A stretch of 64,000 nucleotides of DNA. Source: Plectrocnemia conspersa (taxonomy: Eukaryota > Arthropoda > Insecta > Trichoptera > Polycentropodidae). The notes below the pieces were generated by a model, which saw only the letters and a program-made list of their open reading frames with translations, was not told the origin of the DNA and made no database searches. Each line of letters opens with the position of its first letter. Position 1 is the stretch's first letter. The position numbers were made by a program, and so were the translations under genes. Location of the stretch: contig VTFK01000367.1 in NCBI GenBank assembly GCA_009617715.1, forward strand, positions 1-64,000. Reading direction: 5' to 3'. This document shows positions 17,401-20,400 of the stretch, piece by piece.

Positions 17401-20400
17401 AATTGTTTTTATCGTAGGTCGGCAAAGAATTTACGTCTCGCGTGGACTTAGACGCTTCCGATTACATTGCACCTGAGAACTTCCCGGCCGCTTGCGGAAA
17501 AGTTCCGGCGCGTCCTCATCACAGAGACGCCGTAATCAACGCTTGTGTATATGTTCATCAAACTTTGAGAACTGCCAATAGTCGTCTCGCTAAACGCGGT
17601 GGAAGAACTATGGCAATTACGCCACGGTAAGACCTCGATTTGATTTTAAATGATCGGATTGATTGTAAAAATTGTGGATTGAAATATTTTGCAGCCATTA
17701 TCTTGATTTCATTCAACATTTGGTGCGGTTGTATGGAGAGAAACGAACGGATTTGGAAGAACAGCAACTTCATTTGAACGTAGGTCTTGCAAAGATCGCC
17801 GAAACCGTGGAACAAGTCGAAGATATGCAGAAGAGCCTCGCTGTGAAATCGCAGGTTAAATATTTTGCCTTACCGTATCTATATCTTGCTTAGAAAAAAT
17901 TGTTTAATGTATGTTTCTGCAGGAATTGCAAGCCAAGAACGATGCAGCTAACGCTAAACTGCGTCAAATGGTTAAAGACCAACAAGAAGCTGAAAAGAAG
18001 AAAGTGGAATCTCAAGAAATTCAAGTAATTGGATTGTGCATTTAAATAATTGCGCATCGTTCGCGTTATTTTTATTGATATTTTTATAGGTTTCGTTAGC
18101 TAAGCAGACCATTCAAATCGAAGCCAAACGTAAAGACGTAATGGCCGATTTGGCACTGGTGGAGCCGGCCGTAATCGACGCCCAAACCGGTGCGTATTCG
18201 TTCACACGGATATATTTAATCATATTATTTCTTAAGATACTTTTAAGATTTATTCAGTAGACGAAGGCAGAACTTTTAAGTTTATCATCTAACTTGATAT
18301 TTAATTTGCCACCACTAAAAGCTGTGAGGTCGATAAAGAAGCAACAGTTAGTCGAGGTGCGCGCCATGGCGAATCCCCCGGCCATCGTCAAGTTGGCTTT
18401 GGAGTCCATCTGCCTGTTGCTGGACGACCGCACGTTGGACTGGCGCTCCATCCGCTCCGTTTTAATGCGTGACAACTTCATCCCTAGCATAGTCAACTTC
18501 CAAACGAACATGATAACGTTAGGACACATTCTACTAATTGTATCCTTCCACTCGATTTGAAACCATACCCTAAATCGATACTAAAAATGCTGCGGAACTT
18601 TGTATAATATAAAAATGCGCTTACTTTTTAAAATGTCACTGGAGATGTGTTATGTGTTAATAACCATATTTTGTAACTAATGACTATAACTTGATTAATC
18701 GTATATTATTTATTGGGATGATAGGATTTTAAATTTGAGGTTTATTAACATGTAAATATTAATTTAGGTCGCCTTCGTCATAATGAGTAATCCACGGAAG
18801 CCAATTGAATACAAATAATATTAAAAACTGATAAGTTTGCCTATCAACCCAATAATTTGTAATTCAATATTTAGATTAGATTTTAAGTCGTGTCACTTTT
18901 TTGATAATGTTTGTACATGAAACAATTACTCATTTATCTTTTGAGATGTTCAAGAAACCATTAAGTAGATGCTTGATATAGATCCTTCAAATCATTCTCA
19001 TTTAGTTGAATAGCATTAAATGGACTTGCACGTATTTTTTTCAGTGCTAAAAACATAAAAAAGAGTTCTATTATGTTAAAATCACAGGACTAGATAGAAA
19101 GTCACCCGAAAATCGTCATAGACTCAATGGATAATGCTTCTCAAAAGAAAAATAATCAGATTATAATAATTGGGACTTTTATACATATTTTACGTATGTG
19201 ACACGACTTTAGCAGCAACCTAATATATGTATTTTTATACATTAATATATAACATATAGAGTAATTTAGTTATTATATATACATACAATATGTGAGTGTT
19301 TACTGCTTTTATTGTAAAAGGTCTGCCTTCTTATTTATTATAATTTATGTGTATGTATTACTTTATTCTTTAATAGTAATAAGCATGGTCCATATATCTC
19401 TCATCTGATTATTTCTCTCTCTTTTCTTTTTTTGCTGTCATTTGCTCCTACCGCACCGCCATTGATCGCCTGCCGTGCACCACATCTCGTCACTATCGGT
19501 GGATAACCCGCTATGTGGAAAACTGGACTTCGAATCACCGTGTATATATAATACATAAAAAATAGCTGTAAAGTCGATTAAGAAACAACACTTGGTCGAA
19601 GTGCGTTCTATGGCCAACCCGCCGGCCATAGTGAAAGTAGCACTGGAGTCAATATGTCTCTTGCTCGGAGAGAACGCTACGGATTGGAAAGCCATTCGAG
19701 CCGTAATTATGAGGGAGAATTTTATCAACTCGATCGTATCGAACTTTTCGACCGAAGACATAACGTGAGAAATTAAATTATTTCATTCAAAGGCGCATAC
19801 ATAAAATTGACACATAATGCTTTGTTCTCTCCTAAACTTTCCCATAAATATTTTTACATAAGTATATATAATTTATGATTTTATGTGTTGATTATATGTA
19901 TGTATGTTTCGTTATATATATATATAGTTTTTTATAGTATAGTTTTAATTCACTGCGCATGGTATCCTCATTCCTGATATGCTCGTTTTGATTTGATAAT
20001 ATACAAATTGATACAATCTCCATCAAGTTGCAAGTTTGCTCGTAATACGTTACTAATTAAAAATCATACGTCATAAAGGGTGGTTATAAACATTCAATGT
20101 TTTCTCATGTTAATATTATACATAATACATCATATAACGCTTGGGATTGGAATGCGGTGTTCCTCGTTTTGTCGTTTGCGTAAATCGATTCTTAACAAAT
20201 ACTTTTTTGAGTTCTGTATTTACGAAATTGTTTGTCCAAGTGCAGTGTATGGTTTCAAAAGTCAACTCTTTAAAACGACGAGTATTATATGACATTCATA
20301 TTTTATTTTTGTGTGGAAAAATTTCTAATCGATTTTTTCGGGCGATACTTTCAGCGACGAGGTGCGTGAAAAGATGAAAACTCGCTATCTGAGCAACCCC

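Follow-up and report, generated by a model that had tools for sequence, protein, structure and literature searches.

Two tandem exons, probably used one at a time, in the microtubule-binding domain of cytoplasmic dynein-1 of the caddisfly Plectrocnemia conspersa and other insects

Dynein is a major cargo motor in animal cells, and the diversity of dynein-1 is usually ascribed to its smaller subunits and adaptors. The locus described here raises the question of whether the heavy chain itself may come in two forms that differ where the motor meets its track. The window (the whole stretch of 64,000 nucleotides analysed, from contig VTFK01000367.1 of P. conspersa) contains two neighboring exons, A and B, that encode versions of the same segment of the dynein microtubule-binding domain (MTBD), and an earlier note on this DNA had read them as a mutually exclusive pair altering about half of that domain. 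This reading is supported by the frame logic, the signature of selection, the phylogeny and the deposited models of other insects. Very probably, A and B stem from an old tandem exon duplication within the gene for the cytoplasmic dynein-1 heavy chain and are used singly, and one gene would then probably build two dyneins with different microtubule grips. Exclusive use of the two exons in P. conspersa, regulation of the choice and an effect on microtubule binding are what the sequence suggests.

The locus and its two alternative exons

On the forward strand, the window covers the greater part of the gene for an insect cytoplasmic dynein-1 heavy chain, with tblastn matches of the flea protein P0208 (residues 257-4668, small gaps) extending over positions 999..26725. 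The AAA_6 and Dynein_heavy domains of Pfam are also present in the gene, and the top eight of 62 long relatives, ranked by summed tblastn scores over the window, are lepidopteran proteins, which points to a lepidopteran or a near relative such as a caddisfly. As for mobile elements, a Transposase_1 piece (Pfam; 4497-4823, forward strand), which we take to be of mariner type, lies in the long dynein intron between flea-protein residues 789 and 799, and a DDE_1 transposase open frame of 329 amino acids (36337-37323, forward strand), presumably of pogo or jerky type, is located downstream of the dynein gene.

Table 1. Features of the alternative-exon region, in window positions
Feature	Position	Strand	Details
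Constant upstream exon, CC1 of the stalk	18090..18189	+	phase 0 to 1; sequence, frame check
Alternative exon A, end of CC1/H1/H2/start of H3 of the MTBD	18322..18517	+	196 nt; splice sites, frame
Alternative exon B, same MTBD segment	19566..19764	+	199 nt; splice sites, frame
Constant downstream exon, rest of the MTBD and start of CC2 (DEVREKM...KWAIAQ)	20355..20472	+	sequence, frame check
AG-free stretch, candidate distant branch point region	19384..19563	+	180 nt; before the exon B acceptor
Pure pyrimidine tract	19412-19433	+	22 nt; ~130 nt upstream of the exon B acceptor
Pairing arms that would loop out exon A	18263..18278 with 19315..19330	+	94% of 16 nt complementary
Pairing arms that would loop out exon B	18556..18571 with 20244..20259	+	94% of 16 nt complementary

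The coordinates, phases and splice sites first proposed for A and B were confirmed from the sequence and by a frame check (Table 1). With a slash marking the exon border, the donor of the upstream exon is /GTGCGT, exon A is bordered by ...CTAAAAG/CT and ...AAC/GTTAGG, and exon B by ...AAAATAG/CT and ...AAC/GTGAGA. Both exons have AG/GT sites and run from phase 1 to phase 2, and their lengths differ by 3 nt. With A alone or B alone the reading frame continues into DEVREKM; joined through their native splice sites, A and B lead to a stop after CKVD, and skipping both leads to a stop after ATRCVKR, so that using both or neither does break the frame, as had been claimed. Exon B is the insect-conserved form and has one residue more than A (VSNF). 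In tblastn searches of the window with each exon, A and B find themselves and each other at E values of about 3e-26 and no third copy was detected, all further matches having E values of at least 3.2; chance is thus excluded as an explanation for the likeness of A and B.

The two exons are identical at 48 of 66 aligned residues and differ by 18 substitutions and a one-residue gap (the inserted residue being in B), which agrees with the identity estimated earlier. The clustering of changes after LLL was also seen, with 14 of the 18 substitutions and the gap located there and the remaining 4 before its end. At the codon level, positions 1, 2 and 3 are identical at 48, 55 and 21 of 64 codons, respectively, and four-fold sites agree at 5 of 18; dN is 0.24, and dS is saturated and not computable. 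Since the synonymous sites are saturated and the protein is conserved, A and B should both be old and constrained, and they appear to be two copies maintained by selection over a very long time. A recent or assembly duplication is ruled out by the third-position agreement of 21/64 together with the AU test against a window-only pair that is given below.

Relatives, age and origin of the pair

Relatives were collected by a full-length search scored on exon A alone, which gave 62 proteins of 63 candidates, one per 90%-identity cluster. A segment with no N at human position 3349 was classified as A-type and one with N there as B-type. The 62 relatives comprise 16 insect proteins with the A-type segment alone, 33 with the B-type, two with A then B in tandem, one cut short within the segment (P0266), seven vertebrates, two springtails and one tunicate. 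The tandem models are from the beetle Asbolus verrucosus (P0205) and the moth Spodoptera exigua (P0206), and these two and the window are the only insect records in which both copies are found. Lepidopteran A-type proteins are from Spodoptera litura X2, S. frugiperda X3, Ostrinia X3 and X6, Leptidea X2, Choristoneura (two records) and Diatraea. Outside the Lepidoptera they are from Ctenocephalides felis X8, Chrysoperla carnea X10, Bacillus rossius X2 and Anabrus simplex X2, and from the sawflies Neodiprion (three species) and Diprion X5. Many of these proteins carry isoform numbers in the database, such entries being predictions that usually rest on RNA-seq, and the full-length proteins among the 16 continue in frame into the constant sequence. 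The suggestion in the earlier note that some insects may share the arrangement was right and probably too cautious, considering the tandem models from a moth and a beetle, the A-type proteins in further orders and the fish with two versions described below.

The distribution of the two types has to be read with some care. Both states occur in Hymenoptera, in different animals, namely A in the sawflies and B in an ant fragment from Pogonomyrmex (P0046). None of the A-type rows among the 62 relatives is from Diptera, Hemiptera, thrips or lice, which proves little since each row stands for a 90% cluster that could hide them. Lack of both the N at 3349 and the extra residue is shared with vertebrates and springtails, so A-type means ancestral-like, and an A-type protein in an order with no observed B could stem from a single ancestral-like exon. 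A pattern search for the relatives' DNA in viral_contigs and genome_contigs gave 15 and 72 matches, respectively, none of them from a relative. The dynein-1 exon of a group of fragments (P0082, P0087, P0155, P0164, P0169, and P0170) reads SGIKKKQL and carries 1 to 5 additional residues in the stretch from LLL to DW; these six rows form a branch (100/99) adjoining window A in a tree of 131 rows.

The main tree was built from 54 of these 131 rows, the named rows and five others (identical rows having been merged earlier and one damaged fish row dropped), over 67 columns, a length too short to fix the deep branching order. All 27 B rows are on a single branch with support 92/89, and the corresponding B branch of the 131-row tree has 47 rows and support 88/95. 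The 12 A rows are outside the B branch of the 54-row tree in four places, which takes three changes at the fewest; window A groups with the flea A and then with springtails, and Neodiprion with Priapulus and vertebrates. All 27 B rows but no A row (0/12) have N at human position 3349; the extra residue is found in 25/27 B rows and 0/12 A rows. Pairs of A rows have a mean identity of 0.763, little above the 0.746 between A and B, and pairs of B rows one of 0.860. Exon B of the window is identical to that of Spodoptera exigua at 65/67 residues, and exon A of the window matches Spodoptera A at 47/66 and Spodoptera B at 46/66. The simplest reading of these data is that the duplication predates the split of the sampled holometabolous orders, or is earlier, and that A evolved faster.

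Under the explanation we favor, an ancestral exon would have been duplicated in tandem, with the copies then used singly, B as the conserved and A as the variant form; the frame would at least enforce exclusivity, as transcripts with both or neither have a premature stop and would be expected to decay. That the A/B pairs arose separately in several insect orders, some of the A-type orders perhaps having one exon, we consider somewhat unlikely. The scatter of the insect A rows over four places fits such a history, all insect A as one clade being borderline (p 0.0565), and so does a lepidopteran-only A+B pair, which was not rejected (p 0.216); the second version in fish also points to a tendency of this exon to be duplicated or to keep its copies. 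However, the B rows from different orders form one branch, the two residue markers separate B from A, and the AU test rejected as clades both the window's own A+B (p 0.0141) and the Asbolus A+B (p 0.00188); insect A and B together as one clade were just rejected (p 0.0474). With B on one branch and a private duplication rejected for the window and for Asbolus, yet with the A rows scattered, a single origin of the insect pair is likely rather than certain.

It could also be argued that exon A is a leftover of an old duplication, seldom if ever included in the transcript, B alone making dynein. A is indeed less conserved than B, and on unscored inspection its donor (GTTAGG) and its acceptor seem weak. 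This is nevertheless quite improbable, as A has an open frame, intact splice sites and the codon-position pattern relative to B given above, and A-type segments occur in deposited insect proteins. The segment is also retained in the fragment P0126, which matches exon A at 45/57 residues and then reads T-L-G, as would be expected if reading runs into the intron through the same AC/GTTAGG donor. That A and B are not exclusive, being cassette exons or both used in some transcripts, is very improbable indeed. The Asbolus and Spodoptera exigua models do join both copies in one protein, but the native splice sites of the window give an early stop with both or neither, and the 34 extra residues between the copies in P0206 and the shortened A in P0205 make the joined models look like gene-prediction errors.

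A second version of the segment is found in 6 of the 62 relatives (Conger X2, Danio X2, Sinocyclocheilus, Onychostoma, Acipenser, and Chrysemys X1). The fish models with the usual and the second version are P0014 (Coryphaenoides) and the damaged P0207, which holds two; in P0018 and P0020, a single open frame contains the usual version, then a stretch resembling an intron, then the second version. P0224 and P0258 also belong to the fish with a second MTBD exon version. In the turtle record (Chrysemys X1, P0243) only the second version is seen, and the protein, named "-like", may be from another gene. The vertebrate second version forms its own branch (99/87, 54-row tree), and its exon edges look the same as the insect ones, judging from fragments that enter at AV and leave at I or M. 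The p values are 0.486 for the vertebrate second and usual versions as a clade, 0.135 for insect A with the vertebrate second version, and 0.0798 for insect B with the vertebrate usual version. One could imagine a bilaterian dynein-1 ancestor with two MTBD exons; insects and fish, and perhaps flatworms and turtles, would have retained a regulated choice between them that mammals lost, a scenario that we regard as unlikely. If it were true, many animals would run two dyneins of different microtubule grip from a single gene, and biochemistry, largely done with mammalian and yeast dynein, would have met one form only.

The swapped segment and its putative choice

The Pfam stalk domain MT (PF12777, dynein microtubule-binding stalk) is found in isoform A with an E value of 9.3e-16 and in isoform B with 3.5e-17. 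DYNC1H1 is the best PDB match of both (E = 3e-67 for A and 8.5e-70 for B), and dynein-2 (E about 1e-18) and axonemal chains match far more weakly. By alignment, exons A and B correspond to about human residues 3295-3360, which would place the end of CC1, H1, H2 and the start of H3 in the segment. H1 and CC1 are reported as the main movement upon microtubule binding in the available text of PMC6629372, so the exon swap would replace the moving part. For this reason, the swap would most likely retune the conversion of stalk registry into microtubule affinity. Both lysines of IKKQ are identical in A and B, and one of them should be the mouse K3299 that is named in the same text.

Net charge offers a hint about the direction of such a change. 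The window's A and B carry +3 and +1, and the group means are +2.1 (12 A rows) and +1.0 (27 B rows), from which a tighter microtubule grip may be guessed for A, the predicted direction being weak. The vertebrate second version has a net charge of 0 (8 rows) vs +1 for the usual one (3 rows), a difference in the opposite direction to insect A.

A close examination of the introns identified an unusual region in front of exon B. Its AG-free stretch exceeds all others among the 117 AG gaps of the four surrounding introns, gap lengths in some of which are accurate to within 1 nt. Shuffling gave a terminal AG gap of at least 178 in 1 of 2000 cases, and a gap of that size at any place in the intron in 45 of the 2000. 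Distant pyrimidine tracts mark some regulated tandem exons, as described in the available text of PMC5224494, and the acceptor region of exon B, free of AG and with its pyrimidine tract far upstream, thus suggests that the exon choice is probably regulated; the AG-free stretch may act through a distant branch point. Pairing between intron arms was also considered. The pairing that would loop out exon A was equalled in 6/500 shuffles, which makes it a weak lead, and the one that would loop out exon B in 92/500, which is not significant alone. Both together were found in 0/500 shuffles; the two pairings were picked post hoc from the window sequence alone and serve as leads. The third intron pair, taken as control, was ordinary in this compact-helix test (439/500 shuffles as good), and duplex energies across the whole introns were uninformative (41/200, 20/68, and 39/200 shuffles as good). 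A steric clash of splice sites is unlikely as the cause of exclusivity, as the A donor and the B acceptor are 1048 nt apart. The intron between A and B also contains a perfect 12-nt inverted repeat, AAGTCGTGTCAC, at 18885-18896 and 19198-19209.

Comparison with known systems

Insect muscle Mhc has several mutually exclusive exon clusters. The likeness to the dynein gene is that several motors are obtained from one heavy-chain gene by a swap of homologous exons (PMC2257972, available text); Mhc is a myosin II with several clusters, whereas dynein here has one pair, which alters the track-binding domain. Daphnia myosin has several exon clusters as well, as given in the accessible part of PMC3228551. 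The region in front of exon B resembles human U2AF1, TPM1, TPM2, and FYN, in which one member of a homologous exon pair has a long pyrimidine tract and an AG exclusion zone (106 and 131, respectively, for TPM2 6b, in the excerpted text of PMC5224494). Regulation of those exons was experimentally tested according to that text; the likeness of the dynein case, which concerns another protein, is one of sequence. At the protein level, the flap in the MTBD of axonemal DNAH7, described in what is available of PMC6629372, suggests that an altered H2-H3 region changes the hold on microtubules, as proposed here, but the flap is a fixed 18-residue insert encoded by a separate gene and the dynein-1 difference is a putative splice choice.

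That such a choice had not been described for the conserved motor, as the earlier note supposed, stands for insects and vertebrates: no description of an alternative MTBD exon in their dynein-1 was found among the matches listed, in a literature collection with few subscription journals and with supplements excluded. For animals at large its scope is limited, as a mutually exclusive exon pair in the dynein-1 heavy chain (DHC1) of Schistosoma mansoni was reported by Pillmann et al. 2011 (PMC3228551, available text). Term searches for dynein in PMC3923563, PMC5740500, PMC9741552, and PMC9013439 returned one reference and otherwise nothing, and PMC11215527 had no word starting with exon or splic. 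For mouse and human, the available part of a review describes DYNC1H1 as apparently having a single isoform (PMC3824068). Several maternal isoforms of Dhc64C are mentioned for two Drosophila species in the accessible text of PMC5147784, which does not specify the exons, so data of this kind may already contain the insect switch without naming it.

With a second version present in fish, a choice of MTBD conserved in insects would imply that, in some animals, tuning reaches the motor's own track-binding end, and the switch would be open to testing in genetic models such as zebrafish. A and B also make a natural MTBD pair, 18 residues and one insertion apart, that offers a direct way to ask how CC1 and H1 set affinity. 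The nearest published case is Schistosoma DHC1, the available text on which does not state which domain its exon encodes; set against that pair, the exons of P. conspersa differ in length by 3 nt. The kind is known, homologous exons used singly in a motor gene; the site is unexpected and points to function, and the arrangement is wider in animals than the earlier note supposed.
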